Positions 4,265-36,681 of a DNA stretch of 40,395 bases are shown here, piece by piece. A program made the translations under genes and the position numbers. The DNA is taken from assembly GCA_947626035.1 (NCBI GenBank), contig CANQQR010000006.1, positions 1-40,395 of the forward strand, given 5' to 3'. The notes under the pieces were generated by a model. It was not told where the DNA came from, did no database searches, and saw only the letters and a list, made by a program, of their open reading frames with translations. This stretch comes from an uncultured Bacilli bacterium. Lineage in GTDB: Bacteria; Bacillota_I; Bacilli_A; RF39; UBA660. Within the stretch, counting starts at the first letter, position 1. Each line of letters begins with the position of its first letter.

Positions 4265-4785
4265 GACTTTATAATCATATTATCATAATAATCTACTAAA
4301 CTAGGTTCTTCTTTAAATATACTATCTATATCGTACTTTTTTATAACATTATGCCCAAGTTTCTTAAATCCATCCTGACTACCAGTAACAACCAAACTAG
4401 TATCAATACACAAAATACTTCCTTTAACATTTGTTTCAACATACCAGTGTCCTCCATACACACTTCCACTTGTACCTGCAAATGCTTCATTAACACACTT
4501 CACTGCTTCACTATAAATCCCTAACTTATCTAAAAGAAAAACAAGCTCAAAAGAACACGTCTTACATCTTCCATCATTCAAATTCAAATGAAACAAATCT
4601 TTAAAAGCAAGTGGCTCATTATTTATTCTAATAGGTGTTTTATCTGAAAAAATAATATTCCACAAAAAATCATCAAATTCATTAATCTCCTTACTATCTA
4701 AAAGAGAATTAAAAAGTAACCCAAACTCTTTATTATTACTAAGTAAATCATATCTAAACTTATTAATCATACACATGTCTCCCAA
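4255..4785 (-). CDS. hypothetical protein with transglutaminase/papain-like Cys-His-Asp arrangement
   Basis: GRCKTCSFELVFLLDKLGI ... GGHWYVET ... CIDTSL order of Cys, His, Asp. Confidence 0.55.
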   Translation of the reverse strand: MGDMCMINKFRYDLLSNNKEFGLLFNSLLDSKEINEFDDFLWNIIFSDKTPIRINNEPLAFKDLFHLNLNDGRCKTCSFELVFLLDKLGIYSEAVKCVNEAFAGTSGSVYGGHWYVETNVKGSILCIDTSLVVTGSQDGFKKLGHNVIKKYDIDSIFKEEPSLVDYYDNMIIKSYK

Positions 4786-4880
4786 TAATTAAAGTGTATC
4801 AAATTTTAAATATAAAATCAAACATTTTGTACCATATTAAGTATATTTTAATAAAAATAATAATAATTAAAATAAAAATA

Positions 4881-4910
4881 TTGACTTATACCCATAAATT
4901 ATGGTACACT
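4881..4910 (+). promoter_or_regulatory. promoter of tRNA-Ala
   Basis: TTGACT - 18 nt - TACACT upstream of the tRNA. Confidence 0.6.
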
Positions 4911-4944
4911 TTTCTTACTTGATTAATTCAAGTGCCTACCATAT

Positions 4945-5021
4945 GGGGAATTAGCTCAGCTGGCTAGAGCACCTGCCCTGCACGCAGGGGGTCGCGGGTT
5001 CAAATCCCACATTCTCCACCA
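4945..5021 (+). tRNA. tRNA-Ala(TGC), CCA encoded
   Basis: Cloverleaf; anticodon loop CCTGCAC; acceptor GGGGAAT/ATTCTCC. Confidence 0.93.
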
Positions 5022-5036
5022 ATAATGTTAACAAAG

Positions 5037-5058
5037 TCCCGAATATTCGGGATTTTTT
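5037..5058 (+). terminator. intrinsic terminator after tRNA-Ala
   Basis: TCCCGAATATTCGGGA + T6. Confidence 0.85.
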
Positions 5059-5186
5059 AATCCGCAATTTTTAATATATATTATCATATACTGTCTTTAC
5101 AAATGAATTTAGAAAATTTCATAAAAATATTTGGTAAAAATTATACAAAATTATTTAAAAGTTAGGCGAAATATGTTACACTCTAA

Positions 5187-5255
5187 TTAAGGAGTGTGTT
5201 TGGAAAATTTTATATAGACGGTCAATTTTCCTAGTTTAATATATAAAATTATCAT
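5187..5255 (-). CDS. candidate small ORF (22 aa, MIILYIKLGKLTVYIKFSKHTP)
   Basis: ATG preceded by TAGGAGG at 7-nt spacing; lies inside a GGCGAAATA/TATTTCGCC inverted repeat. Confidence 0.4.
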   Translation of the reverse strand: MIILYIKLGKLTVYIKFSKHTP

Positions 5256-5292
5256 AAAATTACCTCCTACTTCTTTTGGATTTATTTCGCCT

Positions 5293-5336
5293 GTTTAGTC
5301 AATTGCTTTTCTTCGTTAATCTTACTTTGACTAAAC
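5293..5336. repeat. 10-bp perfect inverted repeat (hairpin)
   Basis: GTTTAGTCAA ... TTGACTAAAC with 24-nt loop. Confidence 0.8.
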
Positions 5337-5356
5337 ATCGTTTATATAGAAACACA

Positions 5357-5400
5357 AAAAGAGTAAGTAAATACAATTATTTGTACTACTTACTCTTTTA
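5357..5400 (-). terminator. terminator of yvcK (also symmetric on the plus strand)
   Basis: AAAAGAGTAAGTA ... TACTTACTCTTTT inverted repeat with T tract. Confidence 0.7.
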
Positions 5401-5413
5401 TTTTCATACATTC

Positions 5414-6364
5414 TTAATCAATCAAATCTACAAAAATTTTAGTAGCCACCTTTAAAGCATCATGTCTAATCATATAATTTTCTATTATAAAAAAGTCTCC
5501 CTCAATAACCTTTACATCATTTAAATTTTCATAATCAATCTTAACCAAATCCTTTTGTTCCTCATTTTGATACTTCTCCAAAATATTATCATCAATACTT
5601 GTATTATTAACAAGAACAACATCTAACTTCTTTTTACCCAAATAAGAATTAAGAAGATTAACATGATCACTAACAGAAAAATCATCAGTTTCTCCCGGTT
5701 GAGTCATAATATTAGAAACATACATAATCTTAGCATGAGACTCATCAATAGCTTCAATTACATCCTTATTAATCAAATTAGGAATAATACTTGTATAAAT
5801 ACTACCCATACTCAAAATAATAGCATCAGCTTCCTTAATAGCATTTATAGCTTCAGGCGTAATAACAGGTTCTTCCTTATAATAAACCTTTTTTATCTTT
5901 TTATTAGAAAAAGTAATCTCACTTTCTCCCTCCACTACTGTATCATCATCCATAGTTGCCATTAACACTACATCATCTTCAGTAAGTGGACAAACCTTTC
6001 CCTTTAAATTAAACACCTTAGAAAGTGCTTCAATACCATCACTCAAATTACCAGTAATCTCTTTAGCTGCAGTCAAAATCAAATTACCAACAGTATGTCC
6101 ATTCAAATCACTACTAGTCTTAAACCTATAATTAAAAAGCTTCTCAACTAAAGGTTCAGTCTCACTCAAAGAAATAAGCACTCTCCTAATATCGCCAACT
6201 GCTGGTGTATGAAACTCATTTCTAAGCCTACCTGTACTACTTCCATTATCAGACACACTAACTATTGCAGTAATCAAAAGTGGAAACTTCTTAAGCCCCG
6301 AAAGCAAAACAGAAAGTCCAGTTCCTCCACCTAACACTACTATCTTTTTATTCATCAAAACCAC
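5414..6364 (-). CDS. yvcK: YvcK family protein (CofD-like, gluconeogenesis factor)
   Basis: KIVVLGGGTGLSVLLSGLKKFP, SVSDNGSSTGRLR, PAVGDIRRVLISLS motifs. Confidence 0.95.
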   Translation of the reverse strand: MVLMNKKIVVLGGGTGLSVLLSGLKKFPLLITAIVSVSDNGSSTGRLRNEFHTPAVGDIRRVLISLSETEPLVEKLFNYRFKTSSDLNGHTVGNLILTAAKEITGNLSDGIEALSKVFNLKGKVCPLTEDDVVLMATMDDDTVVEGESEITFSNKKIKKVYYKEEPVITPEAINAIKEADAIILSMGSIYTSIIPNLINKDVIEAIDESHAKIMYVSNIMTQPGETDDFSVSDHVNLLNSYLGKKKLDVVLVNNTSIDDNILEKYQNEEQKDLVKIDYENLNDVKVIEGDFFIIENYMIRHDALKVATKIFVDLID

Positions 6365-10843: not shown

Positions 10844-10969
10844 AAATTCCTCTTTTTGCTAGTACGCCATTAATAATACCATACTTTTAAGCATTTGTGA
10901 ACACTTTTTTTTAAATTTTTTCAAATTTTATACTTAATATTATGTAATTAAAATATTTTTATAACCTCA

Positions 10970-12070
10970 TCAATTAACTTCTTTCTTTTTCATAACTCTT
11001 TTTTGATTCCCACCTTGCCTAAACTGTTCTATCTGTGTTCTTCTTTTCTCATCCATTGCCTTCAAATATTCCCTAAGTTCTATAACTTCCTCGTCTGTTA
11101 ACATCATATCAGGTTCAATAACACCATACCTATCTACTGAACCTTTATGTGCCATATAATACTCATACTTTCTCATTCTTATCCATTTTTCTCTAAACTC
11201 TGGACTAACAGCTTCTAAAACTTTACTTTCTACTTTCTCATCACTAATTCCAAAAACTTTTCTAAAGTCCACACTAGGAAATACTGGCTCATACAAATTA
11301 GAAAATGCTAAATTCATAAATGAATCTCTCCACATATAAGCATTTTTCTCAATTCCCTCTTCAATAGCTTCCCTATCAATACCAATTTTTAACAAAGTAT
11401 CTTCTACACCTTTTCTAAAACCCAAATCACAAACAGAAGTAAGAAAAACAATATCTCCTCCATAATCTTTATCACTAATCCAATTATCTCCACCTTTTGC
11501 CATCCACTTAATTTGAAATTTCACTATTTCCTGTTCATACTCATGTCTCTTTACTTGAAACACTGAAGAAGTCTTTACAAACTCTAAAATTCTATCAATA
11601 CTTATATTAAACAATTTCTGATTTTGTCTTAACATTTTAGCAAGCCACAAATCATCCCTCAAATGACAAGGCAAATTCTCCATACTTAATTCCTCTGGAC
11701 GACTAAAACAACTGCTATACCAAATTCCAGTCCTTGGAAAAAACTTTAATGTTGCTTTTTCTAATAAATACTCTATAGAACTATTTTCACTTTCATATAC
11801 AGCATCATCATTTATAACTATATACTTTTTTAATAATTCCCTTTTATCTAACTTTACAAATCTTAAAAATTCATAATCACATTTTGAAAATGATGAATAA
11901 TAACAAGAAAGCGGTTTAAAAATAATATCACTACCAGTTTTTATTTTCTCATTAGTAAAAATTTCAACAAAATTTCCACTTACCAAATTATATTGACAAA
12001 TTAAATAATATACATCCTTTCCTCTTTTAACTTCTAAAACATACAAATCACTTAAACTATACTTTTTCAC
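10970..12070 (-). CDS. hypothetical protein (366 aa)
   Basis: Long ORF; no family recognised. Confidence 0.75.
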   Translation of the reverse strand: MKKYSLSDLYVLEVKRGKDVYYLICQYNLVSGNFVEIFTNEKIKTGSDIIFKPLSCYYSSFSKCDYEFLRFVKLDKRELLKKYIVINDDAVYESENSSIEYLLEKATLKFFPRTGIWYSSCFSRPEELSMENLPCHLRDDLWLAKMLRQNQKLFNISIDRILEFVKTSSVFQVKRHEYEQEIVKFQIKWMAKGGDNWISDKDYGGDIVFLTSVCDLGFRKGVEDTLLKIGIDREAIEEGIEKNAYMWRDSFMNLAFSNLYEPVFPSVDFRKVFGISDEKVESKVLEAVSPEFREKWIRMRKYEYYMAHKGSVDRYGVIEPDMMLTDEEVIELREYLKAMDEKRRTQIEQFRQGGNQKRVMKKKEVN

Positions 12071-12089
12071 TTAAAATAACCCTCCATCA

Positions 12090-13724
12090 CTAACCTAATA
12101 AATTAATTCTTCTTTTTATTTCATTAATTCCTAATAACCTCATTATCTCATACAAGTCTGGTGTCATAGATTTACTTGTTAAAGTAACCCTAATAATCAT
12201 ACTAATATCAACAATACTACCCTTATAACTAAGAGAATTTTCTTTATACATCTTCAAATCAGAACAATAACCATACTTATCTGATAACATCTTCATCTTA
12301 TTAAACCAAGTCTCTTTATCATCTACTTCATCATAATAATTATCAATATAATCTGTAACAATAGTTTTAATTTCATTAATATCTTTTATATTTTGCCACT
12401 CATAATTAAAATTCTTAAATAACTCACTATACATAAACCATATATATGACTTTATCTCAGAATAACAACTAAAATCTTTCCTAGGCTTTTTTTGTTCTCT
12501 TTCAATATTCAAAATATTAATAGTATATTGTTTATACTTAGTTATTAAATCATAAAAAGGTTTATCAAATTCAAAAGTCCACTTTAATAACTTATCATAA
12601 ACTTGAATAGCTGACAATCTTGAAATATAATTTCTAGAAATACTTATTATTTTATCTAAATCAAATAGTGCACCATTTTTACTCATTTTACTAAACGAAA
12701 ACTCAAAATCTCTATAAGATTTATCCGTATTTTGCAAATACCATCCATCAAAATTTGAATTCATTAACGTAGCAAAATACAATTTTATTGCTTCAACTGG
12801 AACACCTTTTTCATGATAAAACATTGCAGCAGCTTCTGGATCTTTCCTTTTACTAATCTTTCTAATTGAATCCCCATCCTTTATATTTAAAGGTAAAAGA
12901 TGCGCAAATTTAGGTGGTTTAAACCCACAAGCATTCCATAATTCTAAATGAAAAGGAACAGAAGAAATATAAGAATCATCTCTTGTAACAATTGTAACTC
13001 TCATAAAATGATCATTACAAACATGCGCAAAAGCATAAGGTGGTATACCATCAGACTTTACTATAACTTGATCCAAATCATTATCTGGTAATTTTATTGT
13101 TCCTTTAACTAAATCTTTAAATATTATTTGATTATTAAAGTCTCCATTAGATTTAAGCCTTAACACCCACTTATCTCCTCTATCAATATGTTCCTTCACT
13201 TCATCATATGTTAAATTACGACACTTAGCATAATGTCCATAATAACCAATTCTATCTTTTTTACTTTCTTGAATTTTTCTCATATTATCTAAATCACTTG
13301 AAGAACAAAAACAAGGATATGCTCTTCCAATAGAAACCAAATATTTAGCCACAGTATGATAAATCTCTAACCTTTTAGACTGTATATATGGTCCATATTT
13401 TCCACCTTTAATAGGACTCTCATCCACTTCATAATTATAGTGCTCCAAATCATTTAACCCTAACAAAATACCATTCTCAATTTTTCTCTTCTGATCAGTA
13501 TCTTCAATTCTTACAATAAATACCCCATTAGTTTGCTTTGCAATAACTTCTGGAATAAAAGAAGCATACAAATTACCCAAATGCATTCTACCAGTTGGAG
13601 ATGGTGCAAATCTAGTTACCTCACTATTTTTTTCTAAATTTCTTTCAGGATACATCACTTCTAAATCATCAATTGTTTTTGTAACATTAGGATACAATAA
13701 ATTTGCTAAATCATTATTTGTCAT
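12090..13724 (-). CDS. gltX: glutamyl-tRNA synthetase
   Basis: TRFAPSPTGRMHLGNLYASF (HIGH region), VRIEDTDQKR, KISKRKDPEAA (KMSKS region); start at 13724 after AAAGGAGG. Confidence 0.92.
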   Translation of the reverse strand: MTNNDLANLLYPNVTKTIDDLEVMYPERNLEKNSEVTRFAPSPTGRMHLGNLYASFIPEVIAKQTNGVFIVRIEDTDQKRKIENGILLGLNDLEHYNYEVDESPIKGGKYGPYIQSKRLEIYHTVAKYLVSIGRAYPCFCSSSDLDNMRKIQESKKDRIGYYGHYAKCRNLTYDEVKEHIDRGDKWVLRLKSNGDFNNQIIFKDLVKGTIKLPDNDLDQVIVKSDGIPPYAFAHVCNDHFMRVTIVTRDDSYISSVPFHLELWNACGFKPPKFAHLLPLNIKDGDSIRKISKRKDPEAAAMFYHEKGVPVEAIKLYFATLMNSNFDGWYLQNTDKSYRDFEFSFSKMSKNGALFDLDKIISISRNYISRLSAIQVYDKLLKWTFEFDKPFYDLITKYKQYTINILNIEREQKKPRKDFSCYSEIKSYIWFMYSELFKNFNYEWQNIKDINEIKTIVTDYIDNYYDEVDDKETWFNKMKMLSDKYGYCSDLKMYKENSLSYKGSIVDISMIIRVTLTSKSMTPDLYEIMRLLGINEIKRRINLLG

Positions 13725-13744
13725 ATTTACTAACCTCCTTTTAA

Positions 13745-13980
13745 AATAAAAAAAGTAATTCATTCTTAAAGGACGAATCACTCGTGGTACCACCTTAATT
13801 TATAATAAATTATATTACCTCAAAATCTTAACGCGATAAACGGAATAGCTTGTATACACTATTCAACTCCAAAGCTTCATTCAAATAATCCGATTATTAA
13901 TTTGCACCAACCATTAACTCTCTTAAAATCAAAACTATTTTACTCTTCTTCTTCATTGCTTTAAATACAAACACATTTTA
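13745..13980 (-). promoter_or_regulatory. T-box leader of gltX (putative Glu specifier GAA)
   Basis: Minus strand ATTAAGGTGGTACCACGAG T-box, AAGAGAG element, antiterminator/terminator arms; GAA before TGAAGCTTT on the stem I 3' side. Confidence 0.88.
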
Positions 13981-14003
13981 ACACATAGGTTTTTACTTGT
14001 AAA
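13975..14003 (-). promoter_or_regulatory. promoter of the gltX leader
   Basis: TTTACA - 17 nt - TAAAAT on the minus strand. Confidence 0.6.
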
Positions 14004-14113
14004 GAACAAAACAGAATAAATTCCGCCAGATAACCTCACGATTATATATTTCTGCTTCATAGAATTTTACTTCTCCACAGACTATACTTTCCCTAGTCGC
14101 TAGGACGCTTTTT
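14003..14113 (-). mobile_element. dispersed repeat copy 1, resembling an IS200/IS605 right end / TnpB omega-RNA scaffold
   Basis: 14003-14095 matches 40303-40395 at 87 of 93 positions; minus strand reads GTCTGTGGAGAAGTAAAATTCTATGAAGCAGAAA then ATAATC-GTGA-GGTTAT hairpin. Confidence 0.55.
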
Positions 14114-14249
14114 TATTTAATAACTTAATTTATATTTATACTTTTTTGCATTCTTTCTATACTACTGCCACCTTTTGTTCTTTTTTATTAAGAACTTTCT
14201 AAAAAATAAATAATATGTTAGAATATAACAAAAAGAAGATGATTCAAAA

Positions 14250-14633
14250 ATGAATTCAGAAGAAAATGTTATAAACAAAGTAAAGGAAATTGCTAAATTA
14301 CTTGATTTATCAATTGAAGAAATGAAAAATAATCATAAAAAATTAGATGATTGTTATGCTATATATTATTGGAATCCTAATAATGACAAACTATCTATTA
14401 TTGTAGCATCAAATGGAGAATATTTATATGCAACATCAAGTATAAGTTTTGAAAAACTATTAGAAGAATTTAAAACAGGAAAAAGAAACGGAAAATTAAA
14501 TGGTAATAATGGAAATATTTTAAAATGTCCAAATTGCGATAGTAAATTAACATATATGATGCCAGATGAGAAAAGTTTTAAATTGTCGTAAATGTAACAA
14601 ATTTTGCACAAATGAAAATGGTGTTAACAACTA
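14250..14633 (+). pseudogene. zinc-ribbon protein, frameshifted
   Basis: ORF 14250..14591 contains LKCPNCDSKLTYMMPDEK; the -1 frame continues RKVLNCRKCNKFCTNENGVNN, restoring the second Cys pair. Confidence 0.6.
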
Positions 14634-14863
14634 ATCCATATACAGTGATAATTTAATATTTTAAAAGGACATAGTATCTATGAATTGGCTGAAAATGATA
14701 TTCAGCAAAAATTATTATTAAATGCAATAATGCTAAATAAAAAATATAGTAAAATTATTAATGAACAAATATTATACTATATATCTAAGCAAAATTCAGA
14801 TATAAAAAATACAAATGTTAAAAATAATTTATAAAATAGACAAATGAAAGGAAGTGAAGTAAA

Positions 14864-15559
14864 ATGACAAATGAACAAATAATATATATTTCTTTAGATG
14901 ATAGTGGAAAACTTAATAATAACGAAAAGTATTTAGTATATGCAGGTTTATTTTTTACTAACAAAAAAGAATTAGAAAAATTTAAAGCAATTTATAAAGT
15001 AATAAGAAATCAAATTGCTAAGAAAAAAATATACAAAAATATAGATGAACTTAAAGGCTATACTTTAGAAAATAAAGATAGATTAAGACTTTTAAGATTT
15101 ATTTATAAATATAGTTCTGCTGGATTAATAGTAGACAATTCTCAAATAACTAAACAAGATATTTTATTTAGTAAAGATGCTAGAGGAAGATACAGAGATT
15201 ATGTTATAAAATTATTAATTAAAGATATTGTTATCGAACTAATAAATAATAAAAAAATAAACCCATATAAGCCGGTTGTGTTAATAATAAACATGGACCA
15301 AGAAAGTGCTAAGACAAACGGAAGATACAGATTAGACGAGGGAATATATGAAGAATTGGTAAAAGGAATTATAAATTTTAACTATAGTTTTAAGACAACC
15401 CCAATATTATTTAGTTCTTTAGTAGTAAAAATATATACTCAAAATTCAAAAGATAGCATAATAATTCAAGCATCAGACATTATCGCAAATAACATTTGGA
15501 GAACTATAATGAGTAACAATAAAATAACAGGAATTGATATTATCAAATATTTTCCATAA
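14864..15559 (+). CDS. DUF3800 domain-containing protein
   Basis: IYISLDDSGKLNNNEKYLVYAGLFF N-terminus and QASDIIANNIWR C-terminal motif. Confidence 0.85.
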   Translation: MTNEQIIYISLDDSGKLNNNEKYLVYAGLFFTNKKELEKFKAIYKVIRNQIAKKKIYKNIDELKGYTLENKDRLRLLRFIYKYSSAGLIVDNSQITKQDILFSKDARGRYRDYVIKLLIKDIVIELINNKKINPYKPVVLIINMDQESAKTNGRYRLDEGIYEELVKGIINFNYSFKTTPILFSSLVVKIYTQNSKDSIIIQASDIIANNIWRTIMSNNKITGIDIIKYFP

Positions 15560-15561
15560 AA

Positions 15562-15670
15562 AAAGTGGATTGCTCCACTTCCCAGTTTATGTGGTGTATA
15601 TACATACACTTAGTCCACAGACCAACATAAATCTGTCCACCAAGACAAAGCATAAAATGCTTCCGGTACA
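15562..15670 (+). ncRNA. candidate structured RNA directly 3' of the DUF3800 gene
   Basis: AGTGGA-ttgc-TCCACT hairpin; TTTATGTGGT pairing ACC(A)ACATAAA around a GTAT-atac-ATAC hairpin; AGCAT-aaa-ATGCT hairpin. Confidence 0.55.
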
Positions 15671-15811
15671 AATAATATATCAAAAAATATATCATTTGTC
15701 AATTATAGTATATTCACTTTAAACAAAATTATGTATAAAATATTTCACGTATTTTTAAATAAAGATGAAGTTGATAGATATATAAATTTAATAAAAGCAA
15801 ATAAAAATTAA

Positions 15812-16000
15812 AAAACACATGCCACTATGTTAATAAGTAATGGTGTATCTATAAGAGCAGTTGCTGATAGACTTGGAGATACAGTTGAAGTTATAGAAAA
15901 AACATACTATCACGTACTACCTAAAACACGTAGCATTCCTGTCAATTTTATAAATGATTTTAATAAAAATCTTAAAAAACAGGTCGTAAATGATCCGTAA
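15812..16000 (+). pseudogene. tyrosine recombinase (phage-type integrase) C-terminal remnant
   Basis: Frame reads KTHATMLISNGVSIRAVADRLGDTVEVIEKTYYHVLPKTRSIPVNFINDFNKNLKKQVVNDP*; nothing upstream encodes the remaining domain. Confidence 0.75.
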
Positions 16001-16002
16001 AA

Positions 16003-16028
16003 AATATAAAAACCCCATAAATACGGGG
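16003..16028 (-). terminator. terminator of the tRNA array
   Basis: Minus strand CCCC-gtatttat-GGGG followed by TTTTTATATTTTTT. Confidence 0.75.
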
Positions 16029-16040
16029 AAATTATTAATC

Positions 16041-35658: not shown

Positions 35659-36681
35659 CTAGTCATCAATATCAATATGAAGATTAATATCATCCTCAGT
35701 TGGAAGTTCCTTAGTCAAATCCTCAGGTAAATATTTTGAAATTTCATAAGAGCTAACTCCAATAGGTTGGTCTACACCATTTAATGAATATTGGGCTGTT
35801 AATTTATCTTTATCTTTGCAAAGTATTAAACCAATTGATGGATTATCAAACTCACCCTTTAAAATATCATTAACAGCATTAAGATAAAAATTCATTTTTC
35901 CAACATATTCTGGCTTAAAACTATTTGCTTTTAACTCTACAACAACATAACATCTTAACTTCAAATGATAAAACAATAAATCAATAAAATAATCCTCATC
36001 CCCAACAGATATTTTATACTGATTTCCAACAAAACTAAATCCATTCCCTAACTCTAATAAAACATCACGTATTTTCTCTATCATAGCATTTTCTAATGTC
36101 TTTTCTTTATAATCCTCTTTTAAAGTTATGAAATCAAATATATAAGGATCCTTTACTATATTATTTACTAAATCACTATTAGGACTTGGTAATGTAATAG
36201 CAAAATTATTAGCACTTTTTCCTATTCTTAAATGATATTGACTGTCAATTTGGTGAAGCAAAACACTTCTGCTCCATCCATATTCTAATGTAGCTTTAGC
36301 ATAAAGTTCACGTATTTCCTTACTTTTAAACTTTTCAATTAATAATAAATTATGACCCCAAGGCAAATTAGTAACAAGTTGTAACATTTCCTCATCATTT
36401 TTATATTCATCATAAAACAACTTCATATAATTTAAATTTCTTTCAGAAAAGCCTTTCATATAAGGAAACTCTAATTTTAATTCTGTAGAAATATTCTTTA
36501 TAAAATTTTGACCATATTCATTCTTTTCAGAAATAATTTTACCCAACCTAAAATAAAGCATTATTAAATTTTTATTAGCCTCTAACATTGTTTTAGTTTG
36601 ACTATTCTTAATTTCATCTTTTATATTTGAAACTACTTCTTTAAAATCATTTTGTAACATTTTAATCATCCCCTCATACAA
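35659..36681 (-). CDS. YhcG-type PDDEXK nuclease (DUF1016)
   Basis: FSERNLNYMKLFYDEY, LPWGHNLLLIEK, DYFIDLLFYHLKLRCYVVVELK. Confidence 0.93.
   Translation of the reverse strand: MYEGMIKMLQNDFKEVVSNIKDEIKNSQTKTMLEANKNLIMLYFRLGKIISEKNEYGQNFIKNISTELKLEFPYMKGFSERNLNYMKLFYDEYKNDEEMLQLVTNLPWGHNLLLIEKFKSKEIRELYAKATLEYGWSRSVLLHQIDSQYHLRIGKSANNFAITLPSPNSDLVNNIVKDPYIFDFITLKEDYKEKTLENAMIEKIRDVLLELGNGFSFVGNQYKISVGDEDYFIDLLFYHLKLRCYVVVELKANSFKPEYVGKMNFYLNAVNDILKGEFDNPSIGLILCKDKDKLTAQYSLNGVDQPIGVSSYEISKYLPEDLTKELPTEDDINLHIDIDD

Follow-up and report, generated by a model that had tools for sequence, protein, structure and literature searches.

What a DUF3800 protein does together with a small structured RNA encoded directly behind its gene is the question raised by a locus of an uncultured Bacilli bacterium (GTDB lineage RF39; UBA660; GenBank assembly GCA_947626035.1). 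The locus lies in a stretch of 40,395 nucleotides (contig CANQQR010000006.1, positions 1 to 40,395), which was analysed as a whole and is hereafter called the window. RNAs associated with DUF3800 genes are curated in Rfam, yet a function for them was not found in the literature searched. The open reading frame at 14864..15559 on the plus strand encodes a protein of 231 amino acids (pI 9.6) that matches PF12686 with 43.1 bits against a curated cut-off of 21, and the DUF3800 gene call of the initial annotation thus holds. The gene is preceded by the ribosome-binding region AAAGGAAGTGAAGTAAA (14847..14863, plus strand). An RNA gene of approximately 105–108 nt (15560..15667, minus strand), delimited by a covariance model and covariation, stands tail to tail with it on the opposite strand; the two genes are convergent.

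The region 3′ of the stop codon had been described in the initial annotation as an elaborate structured RNA, read on the plus strand. The complementary segments were found where that annotation placed them, and none of 200 shuffles folds as well as the region (z −3.8 and −4.0), so the observation itself is real. A plus-strand element in the 3′ untranslated region was ruled out by the promoter, the terminator and the asymmetry between G-U and A-C pairs, which agree on an RNA transcribed separately from the minus strand. The sole sigma-70 site matching at 11 of 12 positions within 1.4 kb lies on the minus strand (15674..15702), with TTGACA at 15702-15697, a spacer of 17 nt, TATATT at 15679-15674 and a TG before the −10 element; an AT-rich stretch (15703..15742, minus strand) lies upstream of it. 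Across 43 loci the promoter match averaged 10.7 of 12 positions compared with 8.5 in shuffles, and in 42 of them the −10 element has its end precisely 5 nt ahead of UACCG. The predicted transcript starts at approximately 15667 with ACCGG and ends in AAGTGGA-GCAA-TCCACTT and a U run (15559..15580, minus strand), a hairpin that reads as an intrinsic terminator and overlaps the DUF3800 stop codon. A terminator scan of the region missed this hairpin, probably by extending its stem via G-T pairs into the U run, as the sequence was read here; a terminator occurs at the corresponding position in nearly all homologues. Read on the minus strand, the aligned pairs include 52 G-U cells and 2 A-C cells, a ratio that would be inverted for a plus-strand RNA and therefore places the RNA on the minus strand.

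The operator-like dyad ACAAATGATAT-N10-ATATTATTTGT (15668..15699, assigned to neither strand) covers the spacer of this promoter. An 11-bp dyad over the promoter spacer was found in approximately 19 of the 43 loci, the window among them (0 of 2000 permutations). A role as host-wide operator was ruled out, since just two sites with 0–1 mismatch occur in the window's genome, namely the promoter of this RNA and that of an orphan RNA (C10:31804-31835); one additional weak site has 3 mismatches.

Covariation and conservation were then examined among DUF3800 homologues, and structure and position proved to be kept in nearly every homologue of the clade; the initial annotation had named the absence of covariation or conservation as its refutation, and that outcome is clearly contradicted. 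Homologues of the same genus, of the family and of the class (34–98% identity) have an element of this kind directly 3′ of the stop codon. A hairpin P1, a three-way junction (P2, P3 and P4) and the terminator are supported by an alignment of 37 RNAs (A5). In this alignment and its pair counts, P1 (15639..15667, minus strand) combines invariant ACC/GGU pairs, a covarying inner stem and a conserved internal loop G / G-N-C, and the junction (15583..15635, minus strand) has a conserved UAA before P4. Over the 24 pairs of the proposed structure, 91.6% of cells were paired, against 34–43% in slid controls; double changes occurred at 20 of the 24, and 0 of 500 shuffles matched any measure. Pairing reached 96.9% of cells in P2 and 99.4% in P4, with many double changes in both, and P3 was weakly supported (46.9%). 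Covariance model R1, built without the window's genus, matched the window at 15668..15556 on the minus strand (44.8 bits, E 3.3e-10). The TCCAC/GTCCAC repeats, earlier thought to allow alternative pairing, are not kept in the same-genus copies L004 and L018, and that reading was dropped.

The proposed link to known DUF3800-associated RNAs is supported: the RNA is related to DUF3800-I (RF02969), although the window copy itself falls under the Rfam cut-off. A search of the window with RF02969 gave no match up to E 10 (cut-off, 44.2 bits), so this copy is described as a divergent relative of DUF3800-I and is not filed as a member on score. At the same-genus locus L018, whose protein is 77% identical to the window DUF3800, the RNA scores 51.2 bits with the same model; the cut-off is likewise passed by the RNAs of L005, L006, L009, L010 and L012 and by the phage and plasmid loci L022-L026, L029 and L030. 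The 5′ hairpin (P1), the three-way junction with UAA before P4 and the terminator follow in the same order as in DUF3800-I, and both RNAs adjoin the gene of a DUF3800 (PF12686) partner. The base of P1, however, reads UACCG...GUCAGGU in the window clade and UACAG...CUGUA in DUF3800-I, and the window-clade RNA differs in being antisense and abutting the stop codon. A RUF2 match in the window (30.5 bits, cut-off 90) was dismissed as chance. Another DUF3800 subfamily (L014, L016, L019 and L020) has a different RNA downstream on the sense strand, with its own promoter and terminator and the elements ACAAGACCTG...AAGCGTA...UACGC...CAGGC; the L019 RNA is barely above the DUF3800-I cut-off. A weak DUF3800-I-like match of 27.6 bits (L031, G000:C46:150-264) was also seen elsewhere in the genome.

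The AlphaFold2 model of the DUF3800 protein (pLDDT 88) had its best Foldseek match in RNase HII, a class II RNase H (1eke; E 9e-7, TM 0.54, 14% identity). D12, E62, D145 and D205 are invariant across 36 clade proteins, with D or E at position 13; D12, D13, E62, D145 and D205 are candidate active-site residues. The DUF3800 motif D-[DE]-S-G resembles the D-E-A-G motif of RNase HII, from which DUF3800 differs in being paired with an RNA gene. The predicted RNase HII-like fold and the conserved acidic residues accord with the earlier description of the protein as nuclease-like, and it presumably acts as a nuclease. An RNase H fold for DUF3800 has been proposed before (PMC10910872; PMC12669027). 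The literature searched yielded no data on toxicity, binding or phages for any DUF3800.

An RNase H-class fold with a cognate RNA beside the gene, in a pair that moves as a compact unit, would fit an RNA-guided nuclease, in which DUF3800 is led by the RNA to a matching DNA or RNA target in the style of TnpB or IscB. This reading is improbable because the RNA contains no guide-like segment. It begins at P1 and stops at the terminator, has short loops and no variable unpaired terminal segment, and its longest variable loop is approximately 11 nt and AU-rich, unlike the RNAs of TnpB/IscB-type nucleases with their variable guide. Among the three mechanisms initially proposed, a guide is therefore disfavoured, and a type III toxin–antitoxin-like or defence system is favoured.

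The protein and the RNA are closely linked. Among the GTDB loci retrieved by their protein, 40 of 41 have the RNA, and in a survey of 386 family genomes it lies adjacent at all 24 clade DUF3800 loci, in agreement with the earlier idea of a protein plus cognate RNA; distances among the RNAs correlate with those among the proteins (Mantel r 0.84). In the same survey, 7 of 31 RNAs lacked the protein and 0 proteins lacked the RNA, and in G626 the RNA is retained beside a dead gene with four stops. Outside that survey, M. hyorhinis (L027) and a frameshifted Saccharibacteria homologue (L072) are exceptions. Orphan RNAs of G519, G728, G197:C62 and G435 retain a terminator-like U-rich end, P4 is missing from those of G062 and G696, and the window genome's own orphan has lost its terminator; since some are damaged, the orphans may have persisted as debris and not as antitoxins under selection.

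The main rival to an antitoxin role takes the RNA as a required cofactor or infection sensor, which would activate, position or license DUF3800 as an anti-phage nuclease. The perfect protein-to-RNA linkage in the family survey favours it, and the invariant ACC/GGU pairs and conserved internal loop look, on sequence grounds, like a protein-binding site. An accessory role at Cas12a2 and VI-F CRISPR loci, in association with RNA-guided effectors, has also been reported for DUF3800, and an RNA-assisted effector would fit this too (PMC10910872, PMC12669027). However, the RNA often persists without the protein and the reverse never occurred in the survey, and the RNA has its prophage slot and orphan loci in common with a known antitoxin RNA, so we consider the cofactor reading rather unlikely.

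Placement of the RNA varies among loci. It is antisense and downstream of the gene in most, sense and downstream in L012, L022-L025, L028, L030, L075 and L078, and upstream in L026 and L029; in L045 (1421-3327) a transposase gene is inserted between the DUF3800 stop codon and the RNA, and both the DUF3800 gene and the RNA are intact. Antisense pairing with the mRNA thus cannot be the common function, and the RNA probably acts in trans. At the window locus itself, the convergent overlap at the stop codon and the lack of an evident plus-strand terminator for the DUF3800 mRNA would suit an RNA that mainly represses this mRNA, through convergent transcription or by pairing with read-through mRNA. 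Where the RNA is inverted, upstream or split from the gene, however, its fold, promoter and terminator are kept, and compensatory changes maintain its structure; such antisense control is quite improbable.

The cassette of gene, RNA and promoter (14847-15742, approximately 0.9 kb) is 97% identical in G008, where the 4.4-kb contig has nothing else in common with the window. Homology begins with the ribosome-binding region, the left edge, and stops at 15742, the right edge formed by the AT-rich stretch. Almost the same span is common to L034, L004 and L018, and the edges are sharp and repeated in these loci and in L033, the locus of G008. Judged by sequence comparison, gene, RNA and promoter evidently travel between bacteria as one minimal mobile cassette. 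In the window, the cassette is carried by a variable island between tRNA-Arg and tRNA-Phe (10844..16040, no strand), which was delimited by comparison with relatives: in G005, G007 and G001 the island is absent and the tRNA-Arg/Pro pair lies approximately 20 bp from tRNA-Phe, and in G004 approximately 1.3 kb of other content occupies the site. The C-terminal remnant of a phage integrase (15827..16001, plus strand; phrog_1 integrase, E 3e-4) lies beside tRNA-Phe and is partly present in G004. The shared cassette, the tRNA-flanked island, the integrase remnant and the prophage contexts together uphold the association with mobile elements suggested initially. Many family DUF3800 loci sit among housekeeping genes.

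The sharp, repeated cassette edges and the RNase H-like fold might also be explained by a selfish element, in which the protein mobilises the cassette and the RNA is its cofactor or substrate. Carriers often have their own integrases, RNA copies occur alone and RNase HII, not a transposase, tops the fold search, and we regard this explanation as highly improbable.

The island and its surroundings hold further genes. A second gltX with a T-box leader lies inside the island (12090-13965) and is approximately 50% identical both to the gltX of the genus and to the other copy in the genome; gltX was tried as a synteny anchor and was unsuitable, the window copy being a paralogue, and the tRNA cluster worked instead. 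A zinc-ribbon open reading frame just upstream of the DUF3800 gene (14250-14640) is apparently frameshifted near 14588. A DUF1016/YhcG PDDEXK nuclease gene (35659-36681, minus strand) is a strong match to the PADLOC candidate PDC-S02, and such a nuclease is also found near the DUF3800 loci of two relatives.

Prophage contexts place the cassette next to regulators. In the prophage of G008 it comes immediately after a CI-type (HTH+S24) repressor gene, in two Streptococcus phages it follows and overlaps a Cro/CI-type regulator gene, and in L034 it lies after an ImmA-type M78 peptidase gene and before a serine recombinase. The window's genome has a prophage-like segment, C10 (L122, G000:C10:26000-32061, at 4289-5805), with an XRE gene and a 72%-identical CI (S24) repressor, and the flanks of the corresponding slot are 86–87% identical to those of G008. 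In C10 this slot contains AbiF with a hairpin RNA, followed by an orphan DUF3800-type RNA that has the window's promoter and no terminator. The AbiF-type hairpin precedes or adjoins AbiF in 7 of 10 family loci. Orphan DUF3800-type RNAs of G435, G062 and G696 (the latter two from one genus and not independent) stand beside AbiF-type RNAs, with no intact AbiF present. At L149, L150 and L086, near manganese catalase genes, an orphan DUF3800-type RNA adjoins an AbiF-type hairpin, and neither the AbiF nor the DUF3800 gene is intact. In viral contigs, no AbiF-type hairpin was found, and a scan of viral contigs with a single protein returned nothing.

The AbiF (Abi_2) system is one of the closest known: a prophage-borne protein with a small structured RNA that has its own promoter and terminator, and with the prophage slot and orphan RNA loci in common with the DUF3800 RNA. 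The AbiF RNA of C. difficile, RCd22, binds its toxin directly and thereby neutralises it both in cis and in trans (PMC12373285). Its antitoxin role is experimental, whereas that of the DUF3800 RNA is inferred; the AbiF RNA also lies upstream on the same strand as its gene, and AbiF shows a link to the ancestry of Cas13 rather than to RNase HII. That the DUF3800 RNA acts as an antitoxin is favoured by the shared slot and orphan loci, by the asymmetric loss of protein and RNA and by the nuclease fold.

On analysis of these data, the best single reading, held at roughly even confidence, is a type III-like toxin–antitoxin or abortive-infection module with the RNA as antitoxin. It would be a two-gene module of mobile-element origin, in which the RNA has a strong promoter of its own and serves in trans as the cognate RNA of the putative RNase HII-like nuclease, most likely binding and silencing it. 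Prophages and integrative elements carry the pair beside a repressor gene, where it would act as an abortive-infection or addiction module, the presumably toxic nuclease being freed upon infection or RNA loss. The module resembles type III systems (ToxIN, AbiQ, TenpIN and CptIN) in that a proposed nuclease toxin is held by a structured RNA. Unlike type III antitoxins, which typically form tandem repeat arrays and are cotranscribed upstream of the toxin, the DUF3800 RNA is a single unit, downstream on the opposite strand with its own promoter, and the DUF3800 fold is unrelated; the single unit and the lack of cotranscription count against the antitoxin reading, as do the damage to some orphan RNAs, the many family loci among housekeeping genes and the reported accessory role at CRISPR loci. 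In Tha/Ith of Staphylococcus prophages, a prophage defence nuclease is also switched off by an overlapping antisense gene (PMC11087260), but Ith is a protein and the antisense product at DUF3800 loci is a structured RNA.

We tentatively go further, with the chances leaning against us, and suggest a new class of abortive-infection module, in which an RNase HII-like toxin would be paired with an antitoxin RNA that forms a single unit, is transcribed separately and has an operator of its own, and paired orphan RNAs of DUF3800 and AbiF type would be kept as protection against incoming mobile elements. For this DUF3800 clade, the strand, transcription unit and fold are now fixed, and the common prophage slot and orphan RNA loci tie the DUF3800 RNA to a known RNA-antitoxin system. 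The role of DUF3800 RNAs thereby becomes testable as a simple question of toxicity and rescue.
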